From Cryomorphaceae bacterium BACL29 MAG-121220-bin8 (GTDB taxonomy: Bacteria > Bacteroidota > Bacteroidia > Flavobacteriales > Flavobacteriaceae), in assembly GCA_905181705.1 (NCBI GenBank), contig CAJIYP010000003.1:793810-857809 (forward strand): a stretch of 64,000 nt of DNA, in the 5' to 3' direction. This document shows positions 7,864 to 27,453 of this stretch, one piece after another. The notes beneath the pieces are model-generated. The model did not search any database and had not been told where the DNA came from. It was given only the letters and a program-made list of their open reading frames with translations. Position numbers and translations under genes: made by a program. Positions within the stretch are counted from its first letter, which is position 1, and each line of letters opens with the position of its first letter.

Positions 7864-9312
7864 CTAGATTTCCCAACCAGCTCTGTATTTTCTTGTAACA
7901 AATTGATTAGCTTCTTCAAGGTTTGTTATTTTCATGTTTTCTCCGTCCCAAAGAAGTTTTTTTCTAGCAAAAAAGTCTAATTTACCTTTCGCATTTTCTT
8001 TTCTAAGCATATAGCTTCTTATAGCTAAATTACCCATTAGAACAGTTTCCGTCATTGGTCCTGCATAATCAAAAGAAGAAGTTAAGTCAAGATGCTCTTT
8101 ACTATTAAAGCCAGCTTTACAAGCATCCACCCATCTGCGCTGATGGCCATATTCAGGCTCAGACATTTTCTCAGTTTCTGGGCCAAACTCTGTCTCTCCA
8201 TTATATAAATACAGTTTCGGAGTTAACGCAGAGCTATCATTAATGTTTGTAGAAATAATACCTTTCTCACCAATCATTAAAACACCATTAAAGCTCCCAG
8301 GTCCTCCAATATCATCATTTGCTGGAATAATTTCTGGATGTGGTGGTCTTATTCCGCCATCTGTCCAAGTTAATTGCATTGGGGTGTCATTTTTTTCTGT
8401 TGAACCAAAGTTTAAAGTAATTAATGATGAAGGTGGACATCCTTCAGGAAAATAATCAGCATTCCACATTTTCGTATAAACACTTCCCACACTACATTCA
8501 GCATCCTTTGGATATTTTAGTCCCAGAGTTCTAAAAGGAATATCAATTAAGTGACACCCAACATCTCCTAAGGCTCCAGTACCATATTCCCACCAGCCTC
8601 TCCAATTAAATGGATGCAAGTTTGGGGTGTAAGGCTTGTCCGAGGCTGGGCCTAACCATAAGTCCCAATTTAAGGAATCAGGTTTGTTACTAGGATCAGG
8701 CTTCATCATTTCTATTCCCTGTGGCCAAACAGGTCTATTGGTCCATACTTTTACTTCTGAAATTTTACCAACCTTTCCTGAGTCAATCCAGTTTTGTACC
8801 ATTCCTAATAATGGATTGGAGCCTCCTTGGTTACCCATTTGAGTAACCACTTTTTGTTTTCTTGCTAGAGTGGTTAAAAGTCTAGCTTCTTTTATGTTGT
8901 GGGTTATAGGTTTTTGAACGTATACATGTTTGTTCCTTTCCATTGCATAAACTGCAGCACATCCATGAACATGATCAGGAGTTGATATTGTTACGGCGTC
9001 CAAATCTTTTTCTTTATCTAACATTTCTCTAAAGTCAGAGTATAGTTTTGCCTTAGGAAACTTTTTTACTGTTCCTTTAGCGCTTCCTGAGAAATCAACA
9101 TCGCACAATGCTCCTATCCTTTCTCTTCCATTTACTGAGGAGTTTAAAATATCACTAGAACCTTTCCCTCCAGCTCCAATAGCCGCTAAATTAAGTTGAT
9201 CACTTGGTGGAGTGTACCCAACCCCTCCTAAAACATTTCTTGGTACAATGAAAAATCCAGCTCCTATAGCAGAGGATTTCTTAATAAAATTTCTTCTTGA
9301 TTTTTTGTTCAT
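7864..9312 (-). CDS. Gfo/Idh/MocA family oxidoreductase with Tat-like signal
   Basis: N-term KKSRRNFIKKSSAIGAG (twin-arginine), LAAIGAGGKG Rossmann, VQKPITHN motif. Confidence 0.87.
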   Translation of the reverse strand: MNKKSRRNFIKKSSAIGAGFFIVPRNVLGGVGYTPPSDQLNLAAIGAGGKGSSDILNSSVNGRERIGALCDVDFSGSAKGTVKKFPKAKLYSDFREMLDKEKDLDAVTISTPDHVHGCAAVYAMERNKHVYVQKPITHNIKEARLLTTLARKQKVVTQMGNQGGSNPLLGMVQNWIDSGKVGKISEVKVWTNRPVWPQGIEMMKPDPSNKPDSLNWDLWLGPASDKPYTPNLHPFNWRGWWEYGTGALGDVGCHLIDIPFRTLGLKYPKDAECSVGSVYTKMWNADYFPEGCPPSSLITLNFGSTEKNDTPMQLTWTDGGIRPPHPEIIPANDDIGGPGSFNGVLMIGEKGIISTNINDSSALTPKLYLYNGETEFGPETEKMSEPEYGHQRRWVDACKAGFNSKEHLDLTSSFDYAGPMTETVLMGNLAIRSYMLRKENAKGKLDFFARKKLLWDGENMKITNLEEANQFVTRKYRAGWEI

Positions 9313-9389
9313 AGCGATATTATTTTACCTAAAAGTAGTTTAATATCGATAAGAATCAAAAGAATCAAAGAAGCTTTTTTATAAAAAAA

Positions 9390-10319
9390 TTAATTTTCAG
9401 AAATACTAACTCTAGTAGGGGAATCAGCTCCGCTAATTATAGATTTTACACCGGCTGCAATTGCCTTTATAGTTTCTGAAATAGTGAAAAGATCTAAAGT
9501 CTTGGCTTCGTCCGATACTTTGTGGTAATCTAAATCTTTATCCATAGGACTTGTGGAAAAAGTATGGGAAGGAACTCCTAATTTAGCCAAGGAGGCGTTA
9601 TCAGATCTAAAAAATAAATTAAAATTAACATATGGATCTGGAAAAACCTTGTAATCAGAACCAATTAAGTTTTGTTGTATTATTCTTCCAAAATCAGAGC
9701 GGTCAAAGCCCGTTATCCAAGCTGTTTTAGGCCCAAAAGGAGATTCTTTTCCAATCATTTCAATGTTTATCCCAGCTATTATATTTTTAGAATTGATTTG
9801 CTTTCCAAAATAATTAGAACCGAGTAAACCCATTTCTTCAGCTGTAAAAGCAACAAACAACAAGCTTCTTTCGTTGTTGTTTTGATTTGAAAAATGTTCT
9901 GCAAGCGCAAGAACGGCTGTGACTCCAGAAGCATTGTCATTAGCCCCATTAAAAATCACATCTTCTTCATCACCCCCTTTTTTAATACCTAAATGATCAT
10001 AATGAGCAGAGATTACTACAATTTCATTCTTTTTACTTTTCCCCTCAAGATACCCTACTATATTAAAGAGAGAAAGTCCTCTTTCTTCAAAATTTTGCCT
10101 GTAAGAGTTCATGCCTCCAAACCAGCCTAACCCTATTCTCTCAAACTCTTTTTCGATATAAATAGCTGCCTTTTCAATCCCAATTGTACCAGCTTTTCTT
10201 CCCTCCATTAAGTCAGAGGACAGCGCAAATAGATGTGATTTAATTAACTCTTCGGAGATAACCTGAGAGCTAAGAATCCCGGAGAAAATCAACAAAAAAA
10301 GAGTAAGTTGTTTAAACAT
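9390..10319 (-). CDS. M28 family metallopeptidase
   Basis: SAHYDHLG, NGANDNASGV, FTAEEMGLLGS motifs. Confidence 0.88.
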   Translation of the reverse strand: MFKQLTLFLLIFSGILSSQVISEELIKSHLFALSSDLMEGRKAGTIGIEKAAIYIEKEFERIGLGWFGGMNSYRQNFEERGLSLFNIVGYLEGKSKKNEIVVISAHYDHLGIKKGGDEEDVIFNGANDNASGVTAVLALAEHFSNQNNNERSLLFVAFTAEEMGLLGSNYFGKQINSKNIIAGINIEMIGKESPFGPKTAWITGFDRSDFGRIIQQNLIGSDYKVFPDPYVNFNLFFRSDNASLAKLGVPSHTFSTSPMDKDLDYHKVSDEAKTLDLFTISETIKAIAAGVKSIISGADSPTRVSISEN

Positions 10320-10335
10320 TTTTTATAAATAAGAG

Positions 10336-10722
10336 TTATTCTATTTTTTTAAATTCAATAACTATTTCAGCATTCTCTTTGTCTATTTTAATTGCAGAAC
10401 CATCTTCTTTTATAAACACTTGGGCATCATAAAAAAAAACACTCCCTCGAGAAACTGTAATTTTTGATTTGTCGTAGTGTCTGTGAGTCAATATCTTTTG
10501 AAATGAGTCAAGATCACTTTTAATTAACATTTCTTCAACATTTATAGTCAGCGTTTCTAAATTAGACTTCCAAACTCCATTAATTTCATCAATAGATTTC
10601 ATCTCTCGATAGGGGCTATTACACGATATTAAAGTAGACACAATTAAAAAGGCAATTAACTTATTCATTTTACTATTTTGATTTGTCTTGAATAGCCTTG
10701 TAAATTCCAGCACAAGCTTCAT
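10336..10722 (-). CDS. hypothetical lipoprotein (likely start at 10668, MNKLIAFLIVSTLISCN)
   Basis: Lipobox LISC after the internal Met. Confidence 0.55.
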   Translation of the reverse strand: MKLVLEFTRLFKTNQNSKMNKLIAFLIVSTLISCNSPYREMKSIDEINGVWKSNLETLTINVEEMLIKSDLDSFQKILTHRHYDKSKITVSRGSVFFYDAQVFIKEDGSAIKIDKENAEIVIEFKKIE

Positions 10723-10831
10723 AATCTTCCAATTTTTCGTGTTTATAGAGTAGTTGGTAAAGCTCGTTTATCGCAGCTCCTTTTTCAAGTTTAGTTACTG
10801 CTCTTAGATAAAATTTATCAGATACGTTCAT
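10673..10831 (-). CDS. small conserved-looking protein, 52 aa
   Basis: Below the 60-aa track cutoff: MNVSDKFYLRAVTKLEKGAAINELYQLLYKHEKLEDYEACAGIYKAIQDKSK*; closely followed by the lipoprotein start at 10668. Confidence 0.55.
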   Translation of the reverse strand: MNVSDKFYLRAVTKLEKGAAINELYQLLYKHEKLEDYEACAGIYKAIQDKSK

Positions 10832-10959
10832 TTATGAATATGAAAATAACAAATATGATACCAAAAAAAAAATCTGTCAAAAAGTCAAAAAACTAAAAAA
10901 ACTATTCTTATCGTAAAAGAGTTTTTTAAGTTTTAGAAATATTTTTACATAATTATTGC

Positions 10960-11187
10960 ATGAAATTGACAAAATCTTTTATTAAATTTAGAAGAACTCA
11001 TAAATTTAAAACAATGAATAAACTAGATAAGAGTCAAATTCCTAAATTAGGTAGTAAAATTAATCAGCTTAAAAAAAGAATTAATAGGGCGGAGCAAAAT
11101 GGAAATATTGAAAAAGTTGAATTTAGAAAAATGAGAATTAACAAAATTAAAAAGCAAATAATTGAAATTTTAAATAAAAAGAAATAA
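10960..11187 (+). CDS. small basic helical protein
   Basis: 75 aa, Lys/Arg rich coil; ORF only. Confidence 0.35.
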   Translation: MKLTKSFIKFRRTHKFKTMNKLDKSQIPKLGSKINQLKKRINRAEQNGNIEKVEFRKMRINKIKKQIIEILNKKK

Positions 11188-11197
11188 ATCATAGTTT

Positions 11198-11434
11198 ATG
11201 AAAAAGTTTTTCTTCATTTTAATTTGTTCATTTTTAGTTAGTTGTGGTGGTACAGACGATGTGATTGGTGACTGTATTGTTTCTCCTAATCCAGATATTA
11301 TTTGTACAAAAGAATATCAACCAGTCTGTGCTTGCAACAATTTAGTTTATGGCAATTCTTGCGAAGCAGAAAAAGCTGGAAATCTCAAATGGAAATCATC
11401 AAAAAAGGATAGTGGAGAAGAATGTAGCTATTAA
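11198..11434 (+). CDS. lipoprotein with Kazal-like domain
   Basis: Lipobox FLVSC; CTKEYQPVCACNNLVYGNSCEAEKAG matches Kazal cysteine spacing. Confidence 0.6.
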   Translation: MKKFFFILICSFLVSCGGTDDVIGDCIVSPNPDIICTKEYQPVCACNNLVYGNSCEAEKAGNLKWKSSKKDSGEECSY

Positions 11435-11460
11435 CTTTATAATTATGAAATTAAAAGATT

Positions 11461-11547
11461 TTATATATTTAAACAAGTGCTTTGGTCAAAGGTTTGCCCA
11501 AAACTCACAAGTGGAATAAACAGTAATAGTAGAAAGAGTTTTTTCAT
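11461..11547 (-). CDS. very short secreted peptide or truncated gene (28 aa)
   Basis: MKKLFLLLLFIPLVSFGQTFDQSTCLNI*; almost only a signal peptide. Confidence 0.3.
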   Translation of the reverse strand: MKKLFLLLLFIPLVSFGQTFDQSTCLNI

Positions 11548-11550
11548 AAA

Positions 11551-11799
11551 CTATGATTTATTCTTGCCTCCAAATTCTCTTTTTGTCCCATAGTTTTTTA
11601 TAGCTAATACTGTTATATATAAAAAGAAAATACCAAAAGGTATCAAAAGTGAGTCAGGAATAAACTCTTCTATAATAATTTCATATAAAATAATTCCAAG
11701 AGAACCAAAGTATAGTATTTGAGGTAGATACTTAACTGAATATATGAGATTTTCTGTAGCATCTAATATTTGATTGATGAGTTTTTTTAATTTTTTCAT
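11551..11799 (-). CDS. small membrane protein
   Basis: 82 aa with two hydrophobic segments. Confidence 0.4.
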   Translation of the reverse strand: MKKLKKLINQILDATENLIYSVKYLPQILYFGSLGIILYEIIIEEFIPDSLLIPFGIFFLYITVLAIKNYGTKREFGGKNKS

Positions 11800-11813
11800 A
11801 AACTATGATTTAT

Positions 11814-11936
11814 TTAAATCCAAAATCCATAATAAATTACAGCACCAGTAATTATTGTTACAGCAATTACAAATAGAACTCCTAACAGATTAGATTCTTT
11901 TGTTTTTTTATTATAAATAAAATCTTTTAGTTTCAT
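11814..11936 (-). CDS. small single-pass membrane protein (40 aa)
   Basis: MKLKDFIYNKKTKESNLLGVLFVIAVTIITGAVIYYGFWI*. Confidence 0.35.
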   Translation of the reverse strand: MKLKDFIYNKKTKESNLLGVLFVIAVTIITGAVIYYGFWI

Positions 11937-12253
11937 AATAGTAGAATTAATTTTATAAATATATTAAAAGCAATATCGCGACTATAATAAATATCCAGGA
12001 CCAAATCCCCCCCCCTTAGGGAGATTAGGACCAAAATCACCACTATCCCAGCCACCAAAATCTTCCATATCTATAAATTTAATCAATTCTTTTTAACTCA
12101 TAGTAATTAGCTTACTCACCTCTGTAACTATCGCTTAATTATTGTCGTAACTTAATAAGACAGGTCTTCATACCTGTTAAATCCAGGAATTAAAAGGGGG
12201 ATGGCTTTCTCATTGCTTTCATCCTCTTTTTAATTCTATTTAAAAAAGAGATT

Positions 12254-12385
12254 ATGATTAAGAGATTAAAATATAATAAGGAAACAGAAAAGCTAATTGC
12301 CCAGGCTATTCTAAAGCATAGGCAATTAAATAAAGTAAAAGATTTAGCATTTAAACCCAGATTCACATGGAGCAAACGAAAGTAA
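12254..12385 (+). CDS. small basic protein (43 aa) overlapping the next ORF
   Basis: MIKRLKYNKETEKLIAQAILKHRQLNKVKDLAFKPRFTWSKRK*; overlaps the 12367 ORF as in compact phage-like gene layouts. Confidence 0.35.
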   Translation: MIKRLKYNKETEKLIAQAILKHRQLNKVKDLAFKPRFTWSKRK

Positions 12386-12885
12386 AAAGACAGCCAATTA
12401 TTTTTAACGAGCATGGATATAACCATGAGTTAAAACAGTATTCACATAAGAAAGCTTTAGAGGGATTAATCCTAAATGACTTTAGTAAAATAGGAATCAA
12501 AAAGGTTGATTTTAAAAACAATATCCTGGAAACATTCTATCTCAAAATAGCCGAGATACATGAGAAAAACAATTCATTAAAACTGTCTGGCAAGAAGCTT
12601 TGTGGTTTGTTAGATATAGATGATTCTTCTATTAAAAATCACTCAGCTCAATATGAAAAGTTTAGAGATTTTGTAAAACCTAAGAAAGACACATTCACTC
12701 TATTTGCTGAAACAGACAAAGAGCTATATAGACTTGATTATGCTAAAAGATTAATAGAGGTTCTAAATGAATTAAAAGAACACAGACAAGTCCATTGGAA
12801 TGTTATGATACAAGCTTTTAATGGAGTAATTAAGCTCAATGGAATTAGTCAGTATATAGTTAATCCAAACTTTGTAAAATATTAA
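12367..12885 (+). CDS. hypothetical accessory protein
   Basis: 172 aa ORF, no recognised motif, accessory region. Confidence 0.5.
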   Translation: MEQTKVKRQPIIFNEHGYNHELKQYSHKKALEGLILNDFSKIGIKKVDFKNNILETFYLKIAEIHEKNNSLKLSGKKLCGLLDIDDSSIKNHSAQYEKFRDFVKPKKDTFTLFAETDKELYRLDYAKRLIEVLNELKEHRQVHWNVMIQAFNGVIKLNGISQYIVNPNFVKY

Positions 12886-12988
12886 GAAGCCCCTACCTGG
12901 GAAGACTAGGATGTTGGGCTAAGTTCTTGAAAACCTCTTAGTCCATTTCCCTGGTCGTTAAAATAACTAGAAATAACTATATATTGGA

Positions 12989-13123
12989 TTAAGAGTAAAG
13001 AACACCTAAAACCATAAATATTAACAATACGATAACTATAGCAATTATTATCTTTTTTGCTTTTTCGTCAGACATATTATCCTTATCGTAATGTGAACCA
13101 TCACTTCCACTGTCAAAATCCAT
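12989..13123 (-). CDS. small membrane protein (44 aa)
   Basis: MDFDSGSDGSHYDKDNMSDEKAKKIIIAIVIVLLIFMVLGVLYS*. Confidence 0.35.
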   Translation of the reverse strand: MDFDSGSDGSHYDKDNMSDEKAKKIIIAIVIVLLIFMVLGVLYS

Positions 13124-13181
13124 AATATAAATATAATGCTAAAAAACCTAACAACTCAATTAACACTAATATACATTAAAC

Positions 13182-13475
13182 ATGAAATACGAACTTGGTA
13201 ACAATTACGGAACAGGGAGGCCGAAAGGCTCTAAGAATAAAATACATTTAGAGACTAAAGAGCTTATAAATAAAATACTATTTGATGAAAAGCAATTTAC
13301 AGCAGATTGGAAAGAAATGGATGTTCATGCTAGAATGGAGCTGAGAATTAAAATGGCAAGATTTGTAGTTCCAGAACCTAAGGAATTAGCAAGCTCAGAA
13401 GATAACACAGACTATCCTTTATTTATAGATACAAGAGAAGATGCTCTAAGGCTTTTAGAAATGACAGAAGAATGA
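13182..13475 (+). CDS. phage-like DNA-binding/terminase-small-subunit-like protein
   Basis: GRPKGSKNK N-terminal motif typical of phage/mobile-element small proteins; 97 aa. Confidence 0.4.
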   Translation: MKYELGNNYGTGRPKGSKNKIHLETKELINKILFDEKQFTADWKEMDVHARMELRIKMARFVVPEPKELASSEDNTDYPLFIDTREDALRLLEMTEE

Positions 13476-13500
13476 AACTAGATTTAAATAAATTCTTTGC

Positions 13501-14211
13501 CTAATCTGTGCAATTTGTGAAATTAGGTCTTTTAGATTCTGGCCAATTATTGCTATTAAAATAGCTTATTTGATTATCGCATTTTGTTACTTTTGAAACA
13601 TCCCATCCACTTAAATCCATTCCTTCTATATAATTGTCTGTAATTTCCATAAAACATACCTGTCATTGAAGTAGCATTGCTTACATCCCAATTATTGATA
13701 TTAATATTTACATCTCCTAAATCATAATTAATGCCATATCTTTTACTTTAGAAACATCCCACCCACTTAAATCTACATTAACACGTTGAACACCATAAAA
13801 AAGTCCATTCATATCGTTCCAGTTACTTACATCCCAACCTTCAATTCCTTTGATTTCACTTCTAAAAAAAAGGGCTGCTGAACCAGAGAATTCTACTTCT
13901 ACTTTTGTGGTAACCACTTTACTCAAATCCTTACCGTCTTTTATCCATTCTTTTAAAGAAGGCAAATCAACAGCAGTATAAGTTACTCCGTTAAGGTCTG
14001 CAGTTGTTCCTACAGTAACCCAATCCCTTGCTTTGATTGTTACTCCATTGTCTGCAACATAGAAGGGTAATTCTTCTTCATCAGAGGAACAAGAAACAAT
14101 AAATAGGGCTATAAATAGTAATGTGTATTTTTTCATATTTAATATATAAAATAGTAAGAGGTTAAAATTGTGTTGGACTAACACTCTATTTGGTACTTCT
14201 TTCGTAAGCAA
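13501..14211 (-). pseudogene. DUF285/BspA-like repeat lipoprotein, interrupted by frameshifts
   Basis: ORF 13717..14211 (MKKYTLLFIALFIVSCSS...GWDVSNWNDMNGLF...DLSGWDVSKVKDM) continues in other frames as NNWDVSNATSMTGMFYG and GMDLSGWDVSKVTKCDNQ...FTNCTD*. Confidence 0.65.
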
Positions 14212-14683
14212 AACCGCCTTTTTTGCCCTCAGACCAAGACGTGATTTTCACACTTAAGTACGTGTCATCATCAACTAAATACATCACAAGGTTTTTACCA
14301 ATAGCATCTTTTGGTTTACTAACTGCTGTTCTGAATTTTGTAAATGAAAGAGTTTCGATTTGACTTAATGTACCAATAGCCCATTTAGTACCAACGGGAC
14401 TATTTGTTTTATCAGCGACGCTTTCTTTTACAATGTTATAAAATTGACCGCCATCATTTCCTCTGGTAATCCATACATTAGATGTTAATCGGTCTTGATT
14501 GGCCTGAGCGGTAGGGTCTGAACCCTCTGATTTAGTAAATGTTATAGTTGCTCCATTCCAAATAGTTGCAGAATTTGTGAAAGTATTTTCACCTTCGTCA
14601 CTAGATGAACAAGAAACAATAAATAGGGCTATAAATAGTAATGTGTATTTTTTCATAGCTACAAAAGTAATAAAAACATCCAC
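14186..14683 (-). CDS. hypothetical lipoprotein (real start probably MKKYTLLFIALFIVSCSS at 14656)
   Basis: Lipobox; signal peptide identical to that of the 13717..14211 ORF. Confidence 0.6.
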   Translation of the reverse strand: MDVFITFVAMKKYTLLFIALFIVSCSSSDEGENTFTNSATIWNGATITFTKSEGSDPTAQANQDRLTSNVWITRGNDGGQFYNIVKESVADKTNSPVGTKWAIGTLSQIETLSFTKFRTAVSKPKDAIGKNLVMYLVDDDTYLSVKITSWSEGKKGGFAYERSTK

Positions 14684-14817
14684 ACAGAAAGGTTAGTTAA
14701 TAAAAGTATAAAGGCAAAAAAGACGATAAATAGTACTTAAATGGGCTTTGAGTGTGTTTCTGGTGTGTTTGAGTACAAAAAACATATCACAAATTGACCT
14801 GTTTTTAAGCTTACTAT

Positions 14818-14863
14818 AAAACAAAAAACCCCTCTGTTGAAGGGTTTTAAGGGTGGTCCCACC
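14818..14863. repeat. putative att site (left): tRNA 3'-end plus terminator duplicate
   Basis: aaaacaaaaaacccctc at 14818-14834 and gggttttaagggtggtcccacc at 14842-14863 duplicate the sequence at the 3' end of tRNA-CAU. Confidence 0.75.
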
Positions 14864-14917: not shown

Positions 14918-14970
14918 TGGTACACAATGTGTACCATATAACCCTGTACGTGGTACACTTCTGTGTACCA
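14918..14970. repeat. two TGGTACAC inverted-repeat pairs
   Basis: TGGTACACaatGTGTACCA (14918-14936) and TGGTACACttctGTGTACCA (14951-14970). Confidence 0.85.
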
Positions 14971-14972
14971 CC

Positions 14973-15000
14973 AAAAAGTGATTTAGCTAAATCACTTTTT
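14973..15000. repeat. perfect 28-bp palindrome (possible terminator)
   Basis: AAAAAGTGATTTAGCTAAATCACTTTTT. Confidence 0.85.
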
Positions 15001-15069
15001 ATAATTACTGTGGTTAAAGTCCGGTTTGGACTTAAAAAAAGATCTTCTTAAGTTTTTGAATAATAAACA

Positions 15070-15537
15070 CTAGCTCTCAAAAGCCAATCCAAGCTTCCAC
15101 TCATCAGATATTTGATCAAATGAATCGCCATCAAACATTGGACTCATCCAAACTCCACTCTCATCTGGAACGTACAACTTTGATCCTTGATCCGTTGTGT
15201 AAAGATCAACTTCACCATCTTCATCATCAACAAGTGTCCAAAGTTTTTGCATCAACGCATTCAGTATAGATGAATGCAATGGGTTTTCCTCCTCAAGGCC
15301 ATCTACTTCATCGTAGTCAAGACACTCTGAAGTCGAGCTTTCAATATCCATCCGAAAGAAACCACCGTCGTTTTCACCACCTCCAACAGACCCATAGTAA
15401 GCACCAAACCAGATGTCTCCATCCTCCGCCTGAACAACTGTATACAAAATTATCTCACTTACCACTCCACCAGATGCAGAAATATAAATATCGCAGTCAT
15501 ATGAATTTCCATTTACTACTACATTACTTTTAGACAT
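15070..15537 (-). CDS. acidic hypothetical protein
   Basis: 155 aa, Asp/Glu rich, no recognised domain. Confidence 0.6.
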   Translation of the reverse strand: MSKSNVVVNGNSYDCDIYISASGGVVSEIILYTVVQAEDGDIWFGAYYGSVGGGENDGGFFRMDIESSTSECLDYDEVDGLEEENPLHSSILNALMQKLWTLVDDEDGEVDLYTTDQGSKLYVPDESGVWMSPMFDGDSFDQISDEWKLGLAFES

Positions 15538-15585
15538 ATGCCTTCTCCTTGATTTAGAATTAATGTGATTATTGTAATCTTAATT

Positions 15586-15891
15586 TTATTCTTTGATGAA
15601 AGTAAACTCATCTCCATCACGACTGAAGGGAGGATAAGCAACAGCTTTGGGTTCAAAGTTTTCATCGTCATCATCGTCTTCAGGGATATCAGGTAATTTC
15701 AAACTAGAATGTTTCGCCTTAGCTATTTTTATAGCGATGTCTTCATTGTCTTCATCCTCAGAAATTAGATCTAGACTAACCCAATATATATATTCATTAT
15801 CTTCTGCATCTGTGAGTGCCACTTCCATATATTTATCTTCATAGTCGTCAGCTTCAAAATAACTTACATCATCATTCATTCGAATCTCCAA
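15586..15891 (-). CDS. highly acidic hypothetical protein
   Basis: 101 aa with about one third Asp/Glu (EDDDDDENFE). Confidence 0.55.
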   Translation of the reverse strand: MEIRMNDDVSYFEADDYEDKYMEVALTDAEDNEYIYWVSLDLISEDEDNEDIAIKIAKAKHSSLKLPDIPEDDDDDENFEPKAVAYPPFSRDGDEFTFIKE

Positions 15892-16091
15892 TTATTTATT
15901 ACATAAAAGATATATCTTATAATGCAACAAATATACAATATTTACATTTATTGAATAATTAAAATAATACATACTGATATATGATTTCCTTTTTTTTAAT
16001 AAAATTTATATCAGTACAAAGGTAAACTTCACACCTTCTTCTTTCATAATTTTAGATATTTCATCATCAACTATCGAACAATATCGACTAA

Positions 16092-16373
16092 CTATTCATC
16101 TGAAAAATTATAATTAAAAAAGATATAATCACCACTTGTTTTAATAGTATGTTTTGAAGACTGATAATTATCATGGATGTAATTTTCAACAATTTTTAAA
16201 ATATTTTTTTCATATGGTTCATCAAAATCATATTTGTAAAAAACTAAAGATTCAGCTTTAATTCCATCCCATTTCCAAACCTCATGTTTACAATCAAAAC
16301 CTTGAATCTTTATGAACTCTGAAGACAGCATTATTGTGTCTTTTTCAATTAATACGTTTTCAAATTTTTTCAT
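16092..16373 (-). CDS. hypothetical protein
   Basis: 93 aa, directly downstream of the 186-aa ORF. Confidence 0.5.
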   Translation of the reverse strand: MKKFENVLIEKDTIMLSSEFIKIQGFDCKHEVWKWDGIKAESLVFYKYDFDEPYEKNILKIVENYIHDNYQSSKHTIKTSGDYIFFNYNFSDE

Positions 16374-16383
16374 AGAGAATACT

Positions 16384-16944
16384 TTATTTTTTAAATAGTA
16401 TTATTTTATCTGTTTCAGAATTAAAGTTTTCGATTTCCCCTAATTCGTCTGGAGATAAATAAAATTCCTTTTCCAATGTTCCTTCTATCAAAGAATTAAA
16501 TTGAGAAGATTCTAAAAACTTTTTATTAAAATTAAACCAGCCAGTAATGCTTTGTACAGCTATATAATTTTGATTCGTATCGAATAAATCTGAGGTTTCA
16601 TAGAGTGTTTCGTCAAAATTATTTTCAAGAGGGGAAAAAGAAATATGTTCAAGATTTTCGTCCTCAATCTCTTCAAAATCAATTGAACTTAGAAGGATAT
16701 TATTGACTTCTTTTTGTAAATACATGGGCAATGAATTTCTAAATGTTTCTCCATCAGGAACACCATAGTCTTCACAAATATCAATTACAAATTTTTCAGA
16801 ATTTAATTGTACAGCATATGAAAAGACCTCGTCTTCCTCATCATAAAAAAAAATGATATTTATTGAATTTAAAATTTTATTAGTACTTATAACAGAACCC
16901 TTAGGTTCTATTTCCCCTACGATTAGACTAAAAGCTTTATACAT
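16384..16944 (-). CDS. acidic hypothetical protein
   Basis: 186 aa, no recognised domain. Confidence 0.55.
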   Translation of the reverse strand: MYKAFSLIVGEIEPKGSVISTNKILNSINIIFFYDEEDEVFSYAVQLNSEKFVIDICEDYGVPDGETFRNSLPMYLQKEVNNILLSSIDFEEIEDENLEHISFSPLENNFDETLYETSDLFDTNQNYIAVQSITGWFNFNKKFLESSQFNSLIEGTLEKEFYLSPDELGEIENFNSETDKIILFKK

Positions 16945-17026
16945 TATTTTTATTTAGAAACCACTAAGTTAATAAAAGACTTTCTTTATGGACATCAAAT
17001 TCATTACCCCTCTTATTACCCTAACT

Positions 17027-17078
17027 CCATTTTAGTTAAAAAAGTGTAACAGCAGATACACTTTTTTAACTAAAATGG
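17027..17078. repeat. perfect 22-bp inverted repeat with 8-nt loop
   Basis: CCATTTTAGTTAAAAAAGTGTA-acagcaga-TACACTTTTTTAACTAAAATGG. Confidence 0.88.
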
Positions 17079-17140
17079 TACACATAGTACTAACTTTTAA
17101 AGCAACTTATAATAGTTTTGTGGTACACAGAATGGTACAC
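17076..17140 (+). repeat. three direct TGGTACAC boxes
   Basis: TGGTACAC at 17076, 17121 and 17133. Confidence 0.85.
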
Positions 17141-17160: not shown

Positions 17161-17207
17161 AAAACAAAAAACCCCTCAAGAAGAGGGGTTTTAAGGGTGG
17201 TCCCACC
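17161..17207. repeat. putative att site (right): 3' end of intact tRNA-CAU plus terminator
   Basis: aaaacaaaaaacccctc at 17161-17177 and gggttttaagggtggtcccacc at 17186-17207, 22-bp identity to the left copy. Confidence 0.75.
17165..17192 (-). terminator. Rho-independent terminator downstream of tRNA
   Basis: aaaaCCCCTCaagaaGAGGGGtttt stem-loop with T-run in minus orientation. Confidence 0.65.
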
Positions 17208-17271
17208 AGGACTCGAACCTGGGACCAACTGATTATGAGTCAGCTACTCTAACCAACTGAGCTATAGGACC
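17198..17271 (-). tRNA. tRNA with CAU anticodon (Met, or Ile2 if lysidine-modified)
   Basis: Reverse strand GGTCCTATAGCTCAGTTGGTTAGAGTAGCTGACTCATAATCAGTTGGTCCCAGGTTCGAGTCCTGGTGGGACCA; cloverleaf, loop CTCATAA. Confidence 0.93.
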
Positions 17272-23193: not shown

Positions 23194-26100
23194 GTGCTCC
23201 TATTTTTATTTAAAAAATTAATGTATTTAAAAGATTTTAAATCTTGGGTTTTTTTAATGTTTATACTTTTTAGTATAAACAGTTATTCCCAGTCTCCTGA
23301 GAAATTCACTTACCAGTCCATTGTGAGAAATGCCGATGGGCTAGTTTTAAAGTCTTCAGATATAGGAATTAGAATCAGTGTTTTAAAAAACTCTAATAAT
23401 GGAGTTTCAGTTTATACGGAATCTCACACTACCTCTTCTAATAAAAATGGATTGGTGACCTTGCTTATAGGTGAAGGCACTAGCTCAGATAGTTTTTCTG
23501 CAATAGACTGGTCTACAGGACAATATTATCTAAAAGTAGAATTAGATCCTATGGGAGGAATAGACTATTCTATTGAACAGTCTTCCCAACTATTAAGTGT
23601 TCCTTACGCTCTTTACTCATCAAGAAGCTCCAACATAGATTTAACAAAAGACGTAAAAGGGATTCTCCCTGTTTTAGAGGGAGGAACGGGATCTACCACC
23701 GCACCTATGATCGCCTTAGTTACTGCTAATAATGCGCAAATGGCAAGAGATATTTTGGGGGTAGATGCAGCTGGGACTGGCGGAAGTAATGTTGTTTTGA
23801 CAGATGTTAAAGATAATTATTTAACTATTTCTGATTCCTCTGTAAATGCTAGTGATCAAGAAATAACAGCTGGTATCGTTCCGGTAACTCTTGGTGGAAC
23901 AGGGTCTGCTACAGCACCCATGGTTGGGGTAATTACCGCTGCAGATGCTGCAGCTGCTAGAACTGCCATTGGAGCAGGAACAATAGCAACTCAAAACAAA
24001 GATGCTGTGGATGTAGATGGAGGTGTTATTGACGGAACAGTTATTGGACGCAACGCTCCCTCTACAGGTGTATTTACCTCAGTAAACTCTGGACTTATTC
24101 AATCCGTTGGAGATACGGACATTATTATTAAAACAGGAAACGATACAACTGGGAACATTACTCTTGCCAATGGAGCAGATGGAAAGATACTGATTTCACC
24201 AAACGGAACTGGGAGTGTAGTGATAGACGACTTAACTTTTCCCTCTGCAGATGGATCTGCGAACCAAATCTTAAAAACCGATGGAAGTGGAATTCTTAGC
24301 TGGACAGATAACCTTTTTTATGTCGTAAAATTAGATTCTCTTTCAAAACTTTCAGTAGCAGATGGCAATATAATAGTTGGAGACGGAACAAATTTTGTTG
24401 TGGAGTCTGGCGCTACAGCCAGAACTTCTTTAGGTCTTGGAAGTGTAGCTACTCAAAACAAAGATGCTGTGGATGTAGATGGAGGTGCTATTGACGGAAC
24501 AGTTATTGGAGCAAGCGCTCCTTCTACAGGTATATTTACGTCAGTAAACTCTGGACTTATTCAATCCGTTGGAGATACGGACATTATTATTAAAACAGGA
24601 AACGATACAACTGGGAACATTACTCTTGCCAATGGAGCAGATGGAAAGATACTGATTTCACCAAACGGAACTGGGAGTGTAGTGATAGACGATTTAACTT
24701 TTCCCTCTGCAGATGGATCTGCGAACCAAATCTTAAAAACCGATGGAAGTGGAGTTCTTAGCTGGATAGATAACCTTGATTATAACGTAAAATTAGATTC
24801 TCTTTCAAAACTTTCAGTAGCAGATGGCAATATAATAGTTGGAGACGGAACAAATTTTGTTGTGGAGTCTGGCGCTACAGCCAGAACTTCTTTAGGTCTT
24901 GGAAGTGTAGCTACTCAAAACAAAGATGCTGTGGATGTGGATGGAGGTGCTATTGACGGAACAGTTATTGGAGCAAGCGCTCCTTCTACAGGTATATTTA
25001 CGTCAGTAAACTCTGGACTTATTCAATCCGTTGGAGATACGGACATTATTATTAAAACAGGAAACGATACAACTGGGAACATTACTCTTGCCAATGGAGC
25101 GGATGGAAAGATACTGATTTCACCAAATGGAACTGGGAGTGTAGTGATAGACGATTTAACTTTTCCCTCTGCAGATGGATCTGCGAACCAAATCTTAAAA
25201 ACCGATGGAAGTGGAGTTCTTAGCTGGATAGATAACCTTGATTATAACGTAAAATTAGATTCTCTTTCAAAACTTTCAGTAGCAGATGGCAATATAATAG
25301 TTGGAGACGGAACAAATTTTGTTGTGGAGTCTGGCGCTACAGCCAGAACTTCTTTAGGTCTTGGAAGTGTAGCTACTCAAAACAAAGATGCTGTGGACGT
25401 GGATGGAGGTGCTATTGACGGAACAGTTATTGGAGCAAGCGCTCCTTCTACAGGTATATTTACCTCAGTAAACTCTGGACTTATTCAATCCGTTGGAGAT
25501 ACGGACATTATTATTAAAACAGGAAATGTAACAACGGGAGATCTTACTATTTCAGATGGAGCGAACGGCAATATTAATATTACACCAAATGGAACAGGAA
25601 AGGTTATAGCAAAGAATACGGATTTAACAGGAACCACTAGTTTTGCTGGAACGGCTTTGACCATTAGTGCTGCTGAACTAAACATGTTAGATGGAGATAA
25701 TTCTCCTGCTGATATAACTCTTGCTAATGCGGATAGAATTATAGTTAATGACGATGGAATAATGAAACAAGTTGCTATACCATCGATTGGCGCATTTCTA
25801 ACAAGTTTAGTAAATATAGACGTGCTTACAGATGCTAAATCTGATGGAACAAACTTTACAGATGGTTTATCAATTGGCCATCCTATGACTGCATCAACAT
25901 TAAACGATGCAATAGGGAATATCGCAGTCGGTTTAACTGCTTTAGATGCTCTTACAGAAGGAGATTATAATGTTGCTGTTGGAGATGATGCATTAACGGC
26001 AAACACAACGGGAAATGAGAATACAGCGATTGGAGCCTATGCTTTAACGTCTAATGTGGATGGATTTTCTAATACAGCAGTTGGAGTGGAGGCTCTAGAA

Positions 26101-27453
26101 GCTAACGTATCGGGAGATTTAAACACAGCAATTGGATTAGAGGCTCTCGAGGCAAATGTATCTGGGAATAATAACACGGCTATAGGGTCAGATGCTTTAA
26201 AATTAAATGTTGATGGGGAGTTCAATGTAGCTGTTGGAAGTAAATCTCTTGCCGATAATACTACAACAGGAAATACAGCTATAGGATTTGAATCTTCAAA
26301 TAAAAACGTGGGCGGGGCATCCAATACGGCTGTAGGATTTCGATCTTCAAAATTTAATGTTACTGGAAGCAATAATACAGCTATTGGAGTCAGATCTATT
26401 TTAGGGGTTTCTACAAATTCTAACAGCGGAAATACTGCCGTGGGTTACGAGTCAGGAAAAAACATTACAACAGGTTCTGATAACGTAATGGTTGGATTAT
26501 CAGCAGGAAATAATATAACAACAGGAAATCAGAATGTGTTTATTGGAAAAACTGCTAGGGCAAGTGGAGCTGGAATAGATAATGAAATTGTAATAGGATC
26601 TGGAACTACTGGGCTTGGAACTAATAAAGCAGTAATAGGAAACGCTAGCATTACAGACGTTTATATGTCTCAAGATTCCGGGGCTACTGTTTACGCTTCC
26701 GGAATGGCTGTGGTTGATGAAAGCGACTTGACAATAGGAAATGTTGCGGGAGATTTGTATTTAAAAGTTTCCCCAAGTGCAACGGTTGGCAATGAGGATA
26801 TTAGAATTGTCAATAATGTTGGAACTGCCGAAGCTTCTGTACAAGTTACTTCCATAGCTGGAGGAATAGACATGGATGCTGCTGCTGCTAAAGATATTAA
26901 TATTGCTGGAGGACAGGTTGCTCTTGTGTCAAAAGACGAGGGAAATTCCGCTATCTCATTACTAACAAATGTAGGAACAAGCGAAACCATTACTATTACT
27001 AATACACAAGGGACAGGTGCATCGGCAGTCAACATTACTTCTTCGGCAGGAGGGGTTGCAATAAACTCTTCTTCAACGACCGTAAGTGGAGCTTTATCGG
27101 TTGCCGGAAACCTTTCTAGTACATCCGGAAACATTGCAGGCTTTGACGCTACTCTTAATGCAGTAACTTCCTTTTCTTCCAATAATTATACACTTGTTGC
27201 TTCTGATAACGGAAAAGTAATAACACTAGACAACGGAACAACAGCCTCTACATTAACTATTCCAACTGGATTAGGAGATGGATTTAATTGCCTTATTGTA
27301 CAGAAAGCAAATCACGATACTACTATAACTGCTGGATCGGGAGTAACTCTTTTCAACAGAAGCACTCAGGTTATCACAGCAGGAAGATATGCCATTGTTA
27401 CTTTAGTAAACATTGGGTCTGAAAATTATATTTTATCTGGAGACACTAAATAA
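23194..27453 (+). CDS. large tail-fibre/YadA-head-like surface protein with internal tandem repeats
   Basis: 1419 aa; KFTYQSIVRNADG...LLSVPYALYS N-term; 154-aa repeats; NTAIGxxAL head repeats. Confidence 0.8.
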   Translation: MLLFLFKKLMYLKDFKSWVFLMFILFSINSYSQSPEKFTYQSIVRNADGLVLKSSDIGIRISVLKNSNNGVSVYTESHTTSSNKNGLVTLLIGEGTSSDSFSAIDWSTGQYYLKVELDPMGGIDYSIEQSSQLLSVPYALYSSRSSNIDLTKDVKGILPVLEGGTGSTTAPMIALVTANNAQMARDILGVDAAGTGGSNVVLTDVKDNYLTISDSSVNASDQEITAGIVPVTLGGTGSATAPMVGVITAADAAAARTAIGAGTIATQNKDAVDVDGGVIDGTVIGRNAPSTGVFTSVNSGLIQSVGDTDIIIKTGNDTTGNITLANGADGKILISPNGTGSVVIDDLTFPSADGSANQILKTDGSGILSWTDNLFYVVKLDSLSKLSVADGNIIVGDGTNFVVESGATARTSLGLGSVATQNKDAVDVDGGAIDGTVIGASAPSTGIFTSVNSGLIQSVGDTDIIIKTGNDTTGNITLANGADGKILISPNGTGSVVIDDLTFPSADGSANQILKTDGSGVLSWIDNLDYNVKLDSLSKLSVADGNIIVGDGTNFVVESGATARTSLGLGSVATQNKDAVDVDGGAIDGTVIGASAPSTGIFTSVNSGLIQSVGDTDIIIKTGNDTTGNITLANGADGKILISPNGTGSVVIDDLTFPSADGSANQILKTDGSGVLSWIDNLDYNVKLDSLSKLSVADGNIIVGDGTNFVVESGATARTSLGLGSVATQNKDAVDVDGGAIDGTVIGASAPSTGIFTSVNSGLIQSVGDTDIIIKTGNVTTGDLTISDGANGNINITPNGTGKVIAKNTDLTGTTSFAGTALTISAAELNMLDGDNSPADITLANADRIIVNDDGIMKQVAIPSIGAFLTSLVNIDVLTDAKSDGTNFTDGLSIGHPMTASTLNDAIGNIAVGLTALDALTEGDYNVAVGDDALTANTTGNENTAIGAYALTSNVDGFSNTAVGVEALEANVSGDLNTAIGLEALEANVSGNNNTAIGSDALKLNVDGEFNVAVGSKSLADNTTTGNTAIGFESSNKNVGGASNTAVGFRSSKFNVTGSNNTAIGVRSILGVSTNSNSGNTAVGYESGKNITTGSDNVMVGLSAGNNITTGNQNVFIGKTARASGAGIDNEIVIGSGTTGLGTNKAVIGNASITDVYMSQDSGATVYASGMAVVDESDLTIGNVAGDLYLKVSPSATVGNEDIRIVNNVGTAEASVQVTSIAGGIDMDAAAAKDINIAGGQVALVSKDEGNSAISLLTNVGTSETITITNTQGTGASAVNITSSAGGVAINSSSTTVSGALSVAGNLSSTSGNIAGFDATLNAVTSFSSNNYTLVASDNGKVITLDNGTTASTLTIPTGLGDGFNCLIVQKANHDTTITAGSGVTLFNRSTQVITAGRYAIVTLVNIGSENYILSGDTK
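23991..25520 (+). repeat. 462-bp tandem repeats (three full plus one partial)
   Basis: tcaaaacaaagatgctgtgg at 23991, 24453, 24915, 25377; constant 462-bp spacing and near identity. Confidence 0.92.

Follow-up and report, generated by a model that had tools for sequence, protein, structure and literature searches.

Probable arm-type integrase sites at both ends of an integrase-less tRNA island in marine Flavobacteriaceae

An island of 2,344 bp lies within the 64,000-nucleotide stretch of DNA analysed here (the window). Both of its boundaries are formed by the same 22-bp repeat, which combines the 3' terminus of a tRNA(CAT) gene with the beginning of its terminator. Copies of a short box, TGGTACAC, are grouped near the two ends of this island. 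The locus raises the question of which protein such boxes would serve in an element with no recognisable integrase, and whether that element could still move.

Boxes, att cores and cargo of the island

The seven boxes lie exactly where the first-pass annotation had placed them, near the ends of the island only: on the forward strand at 14918, 14951, 17076, 17121 and 17133, and on the reverse strand at 14929 and 14963. The innermost are ~107–110 bp from the core, within the limit of about 140 bp given by that annotation, and the unequal geometry it described for the two ends is also present. At the left end the boxes form inverted pairs, with spacers of 3 and 4 bp inside the pairs and 14 bp between them, and at the right end they form three direct copies whose starts are 45 and 12 bp apart (Table 1).

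The unusual property of the boxes is their clustering. Dinucleotide shuffles of the 64-kb window contained a mean of 0.66 copies of TGGTACAC and a maximum of 3. The genome-wide count proposed in the first-pass annotation was run on the host assembly (1.84 Mb, 87% complete) and gave 22 copies with no second cluster, the 15 copies outside the island being dispersed. A reversed-pattern control gave 24, so that the motif is not enriched and the signal resides in its grouping. If 22 copies were placed uniformly, four would be expected to fall within 53 bp ~7e-10 times, and three within 65 bp ~6e-6 times. Motif abundance across the genome is thus ruled out as a trivial cause.

Table 1. Coordinates of island features within the window
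Feature	Position	Strand	Remarks
Terminator-like hairpin past far core	14825..14848	-	repeated at 17169-17192
att core GGGTTTTAAGGGTGGTCCCACC, far (distal) copy	14842..14863	.	identical to 17186-17207
Inverted box pair 1, TGGTACAC-N3-GTGTACCA	14918..14936	.	motif positions
Inverted box pair 2, TGGTACAC-N4-GTGTACCA	14951..14970	.	motif positions
Perfect palindrome AAAAAGTGATTTAGCTAAATCACTTTTT	14973..15000	.	most sibling cassettes have a similar one
Cargo ORF, 155 aa, orphan	15070..15537	-	no family; no relative among 341 family genomes
Cargo ORF, 101 aa from listed TTG, orphan	15586..15891	-	no family of weight
Cargo ORF, 93 aa, orphan	16092..16373	-	no family of weight
Cargo ORF, 186 aa, orphan	16384..16944	-	no relative among 338 order genomes
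Hairpin, 22-bp arms, inside tRNA-proximal boxes	17027..17078	.	
Proximal box 3	17076..17083	+	start 45 bp from next box; siblings alike
Proximal box 2	17121..17128	+	
Proximal box 1	17133..17140	+	start 12 bp from box 2
Terminator-like hairpin immediately after tRNA, cassette-supplied	17169..17192	-	same sequence type in sibling cassettes
att core GGGTTTTAAGGGTGGTCCCACC, tRNA-proximal copy	17186..17207	.	identical to 14842-14863
tRNA, anticodon CAT (Met or Ile2), integration target	17196..17271	-	

The 22-bp att repeat sits within a longer imperfect repeat of 73 bp. Both attL and attR are retained, with two intact, identical cores and seven intact, identical boxes. An insertion sequence or MITE was rejected as the source of the island, since the tRNA 3' end is directly repeated at its flanks, in place of the terminal inverted repeats and short target duplication of such elements. 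The hairpin past the far core is probably the displaced terminator of the host tRNA, as a filled/empty site pair described below suggests. The perfect palindrome beside the left boxes is probably a bidirectional terminator that insulates the cargo, and the hairpin inside the tRNA-proximal boxes is probably a terminator as well. Palindromes containing runs of A and of T are found in most cassettes of this kind, immediately internal to the boxes at one end or at both; they look like bidirectional terminators, and autonomous elements have no such palindromes at the corresponding places. A segment inside the island (16983–17020) resembles the tRNA flank in the congeners G005 and G015 (85–87% over 38–39 bp) and is possibly captured host DNA.

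Structure models of the four cargo proteins were obtained at pLDDT 34–37. No integrase or excisionase candidate was found among the island ORFs, and the island contains no integration or transfer genes and no recognised replication gene. The cassette holds no phage gene of weight, and its four-box pattern is absent from viral contigs. When the island was compared with phages by BLAST, the matches listed covered the tRNA region alone.

Shared end geometry in cassettes and integrase-bearing elements

The far-end pattern of three boxes was scanned across 85,462 species representatives and occurs at five loci, four of them from Bacteroidetes/Flavobacteriaceae; the Egibacteraceae locus (L061) is taken as chance. 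Locus L065 has the whole layout with identical spacings and the same tRNA type adjoining, around a single YHYH gene. Its ends and those of the island share 96% identity across 128 bp and 88% across 170 bp, and its cargo is unmatched. The same layout encloses a restriction-modification system at L063 (which appears to be one contig with G474:C4, equal to it in length, hence L063/G474) and is present with two mismatches in the far-end boxes of G741. On the short contig L062 only the far end is present, next to genes for a type II restriction enzyme and a methyltransferase-like protein; just past its far att (L062:2509–2530), a pair of GGGTACCA boxes with 12-bp spacing marks the beginning of a differently coded cassette. 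At L064, six TGGTACAC boxes follow tRNA-Phe and precede a second, slightly altered tRNA end with no cargo between, and we read L064:90–400 as a cargo-less or deleted cassette. The first-pass annotation had named absence of the motif from other copies of the element as evidence against its proposal; the motif instead recurs elsewhere with spacing kept nearly base for base. The genomes are mostly drafts or MAGs, in which misassembly at repeats is possible, but the layouts recur in independent assemblies.

A similar design is found in elements that encode an integrase. In the congener G007, a 549-aa tyrosine integrase is encoded by a 7.56-kb element located at this tRNA. A search with this protein in 400 family genomes, a sample of the family as in our other family searches, gave eight matches in seven genomes, and 8/8 adjoin a tRNA gene (CAT, Phe, Asp or Val). 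The related tyrosine integrases are ~515–550 aa long and lie directly after the tRNA genes; among the eight matches, L168 is cut by a contig end and the longest ATG-started frame of L166 is 447 aa. In an alignment of seven integrases, R317, H443, R446, H469 and Y478 are invariant, and we take these residues to have the roles expected in an active tyrosine recombinase. A far att was found for five elements (G685a, G015phe, G701, G011 and G007), in which the proximal boxes are spaced by 12 bp and the same motif recurs at the far end, mostly as inverted pairs; no far att was found for G685b and G723. Three autonomous elements encode a common small HTH protein, which is a candidate excisionase. 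These relatives support the arm-type sites proposed in the first-pass annotation, as integrase-encoding elements positioned after tRNA genes share the two-end geometry, each with a motif of its own.

Geometry was scored in 14 cassettes and elements, one of which, a presumed second element in the G685 array, gave no clear box and was set aside. The proximal pair is spaced by 12 bp in 13/13 elements with a recognised box. The distance from the start of this pair to the core is 56–57 or 66–68 bp, two classes that differ by close to one helical turn, except in G007, where it is 158 bp. A third box is located 44–45 bp further on in the TGGTACAC cassettes and in G015phe. At the far end, the box start is ~62 bp from the core in most elements, with G015phe and G011 as exceptions. 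When each box type was represented by a single element, an element's own ends were the best match for one another in 8/9; in the exception, G015phe, the ends resemble those of G701 slightly more closely than one another. Because the score was devised once the pattern was known, this figure is a description and not an independent test.

Movement of cassettes and alternative readings of the boxes

Sibling cassettes occur in tandem arrays. In G474 (L098), three cassettes follow one another behind tRNA(CAT), each ended by an att sequence: the first has the box GAGTTCCA and a PDC-S18 candidate defence gene, the second GGGTACCA and methyltransferase-like genes, and the third GTGTACCA and restriction-modification. 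In G741 (L099), which belongs to a different genus, the third-type cassette comes first and the PDC-S18 cassette second. Between the two genomes, identity is 95.2% across 3.6 kb for the restriction-modification cassettes and 85% for the PDC-S18 cassettes, whereas the Xer-containing loci compared align only in pieces, at 65–78%, and the array flanks compared did not align. Together with the swapped order, the contrast between the 95.2% cassettes and the 65–78% chromosomal loci is the strongest indication that such cassettes are transferred between genera as whole units.

The congener G015 has a 2.58-kb cassette with the box GGGTTCCA and a Bsp6I-type restriction-modification system. In G005 there is one att only, with a flank that matches the DNA past the far att of G015, and the two genomes thus give a filled/empty pair. 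The G015 cargo is related to that of the third G474 cassette (75% over 1.6 kb) and the box codes differ, which suggests that cargo may be re-housed under a new code. Contigs of several congeners stop at tRNA(CAT); these ends fit a variable site, and assembly limits could give the same result. In L159 (G017:C62), a second tRNA 3' half with an altered 5' part, not called as a tRNA by ARAGORN, lies beside a GGGTTCCA-type cassette end. In L154 and L160 (G009 and G017), GGCAACT boxes ~11–12 bp apart follow the tRNA, with no far att found, and are possibly another box code.

We consider it highly probable that the boxes are arm-type sites of a tRNA-targeting tyrosine integrase and that the island is an integrase-less cassette inserted and excised in trans. 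By comparison with other loci, this reading draws on the geometry, the use of one motif at both ends, the att repeat and the filled/empty site of the sister cassette, as well as on the tandem arrays, changed order and spread across genera of sibling cassettes. We infer from it protein binding at the boxes, excision, action in trans, a cognate integrase and a route between cells. In the mechanism that we propose, the catalytic part of the integrase would act on the 22-bp core at the tRNA 3' end while its N-terminal part, the arm domain, would hold the boxes. The three direct boxes at the tRNA end and the two inverted pairs at the far end would together form the intasome, and the unequal arms would give recombination its direction. 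Insertion would leave the tRNA intact and bring a new terminator behind it, the terminator-like palindromes inside the boxes would shield the cargo, and the integrase would be supplied in trans.

The boxes could in principle serve either the integrase or its directionality factor, and we favour the integrase because one motif recurs at both ends. Excisionase sites are usually limited to one arm. Binding of the boxes by an excisionase that controls direction and does not build the intasome would agree with the small HTH protein of three autonomous elements, with which the box motif could co-vary too, but we regard it as very unlikely given a single motif used on both sides, as direct copies close to where the integrase starts and as inverted pairs at the distal end. 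The cassette encodes neither protein and so does not decide the matter. It is barely credible that the boxes are operators of an unrelated regulator or replication iterons of a plasmid-like replicon: the left four boxes lie downstream of every cargo ORF, the spacing from box to att core is kept across different cargos and motifs, and none of the island genes was recognised as a replication gene, even though the first cargo ORF has the right boxes upstream of it and unrelated phage contigs carry TGGTACAC arrays with other spacing.

A further reading agrees with ours on the identity of the boxes and differs on whether this copy of the island still moves. The island would be a dead remnant that lost its integrase by deletion, with fossil boxes and no mobilisation in trans. 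We assign this a low but real chance, since the island offers no integrase or excisionase candidate, no cognate helper was found in the collections searched and the cargo is unique to the host genome among the genomes searched. Against it, all boxes and cores have stayed intact and identical, and a private deletion does not explain sibling cassettes with other cargo, changed order and 95% cross-genus identity.

The helper integrase that would act on the island most likely belongs to the ~515–550-aa family found after tRNA genes in related bacteria. No integrase was found beside TGGTACAC boxes of island geometry in 400 family genomes or, for island-type boxes, by a pattern scan of the 85,462 species representatives, and no boxes of this geometry lie near the recombinases of the cassette-bearing genomes, which are incomplete. 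The host genome encodes three tyrosine recombinases, of which two are Xer-like (~300 aa, strong matches); the third, of 338 aa, was rejected as helper because its 3.4-kb neighbourhood contains zero boxes. A clade of ~400-aa integrases (G038, G249) has GTGTACCA beside a CAT tRNA and is our second choice, being less likely because of its 21-bp spacing and different far end. A box pair in G022 was rejected because it lies inside an ordinary gene. Viral contigs (L083–L097) also carry TGGTACAC arrays, which we take to belong to unrelated phages, several of them being regularly spaced at a 15-bp period. No relative of the G038 integrase is encoded in the pieces examined of viral contigs with TGGTACAC arrays, and integrase alignment against viral contigs gave distant relatives alone, 25–31% identical.

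Relation to known mobile elements

Islands that lack an integrase and accumulate behind tRNA or tmRNA genes have been described as cis-mobilizable elements, or CIMEs (PMC5704250), and Dehalococcoides has many ssrA islands that lack integration modules and are associated with serine recombinases (PMC3146451). Both resemble the cassettes described here in having two att ends and no integrase, in stacking behind an RNA gene and in being bounded by 3'-end repeats (PMC5704250, PMC3146451). However, CIMEs are described as decayed ICEs or IMEs (PMC5704250), whereas the present small cassettes recur with fixed ends, private box codes and palindromes that probably insulate the cargo. Relatives of our cassettes use tyrosine integrases, unlike the Dehalococcoides islands with their serine recombinases (PMC3146451). 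Integrase-bearing relatives exist, as descent from an ICE or IME would require, whereas the recurrence of cassettes with different cargo does not have the look of chance decay.

Lambda-type recombinases such as KplE1 IntS at argW provide known cases of arm-type sites close to an integrase and a tRNA, with repeated boxes likewise flanking a tRNA core near the integrase start (PMC2951348). In contrast to these, our cassettes keep the boxes without the integrase, and the motif varies between elements while the geometry is constant. The Riemerella 10K island at tRNA-Arg integrates, and its excision has been shown (PMC6764341). Riemerella is a bacterium of the same order as those studied here, and its island likewise sits behind a tRNA with a direct repeat that includes the terminator region, but it encodes its own integrase (PMC6764341). 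Islands at tmRNA with defence cargo can also be carried by phages, one example being I55, which is moved by jumbo phages (PMC12595487). I55-type islands likewise lie behind an RNA gene with restriction-modification cargo and no transfer genes, and differ in encoding an integrase (PMC12595487).

Integron and CALIN arrays are similarly built of tandem, reordered, integrase-less units with small cargo and an integrase in trans (PMC11389934). Integron cassettes have attC sites moved by IntI (PMC11389934), whereas the cassettes here have a tRNA 3'-end core and flanking box arrays and are not integron members. Membership was rejected on these bounds, and the related integrases match integron models weakly, far below the cut-off. 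An integron-like system operating on a tRNA, in which cassettes share one core and a private arm-box code picks the trans-acting integrase, is a tentative proposal that we would put a little short of even. If true, a single tRNA could serve several integrases free of cross-talk, and the cargo, in many cases defence genes, could be re-housed under new codes. With the cassettes described here, it becomes testable how integrases on one shared core keep their cargo separate. No description of cassettes with private arm-box codes was found in the literature searched, little of which was subscription literature.

The combination of two direct boxes 12 bp apart near the tRNA with inverted pairs ~62–107 bp from the far core is a signature by which mobile cassettes lacking an integrase gene can be detected; integrase-centred island finders would miss them. 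Type II restriction-modification and a candidate defence gene are among the cargo of sibling cassettes, and the findings point to one tRNA locus where marine Flavobacteriaceae gain and reorder restriction-modification and other defence genes.

Outside the island, host-syntenic DNA is found at 8001–10927 of the window, which matches G007. From there to the far att (~10930–14800) the distance is ~3.9 kb in the window and ~0.9 kb in G007, and this interval may hold older accessory DNA. A 65-bp repeat, 94% identical (14073–14137 and 14593–14657), covers the starts of two adjacent lipoprotein-like ORFs next to the island. On the other side of the island, a 1,419-aa ORF with long near-identical internal repeats is located at 23194–27453.
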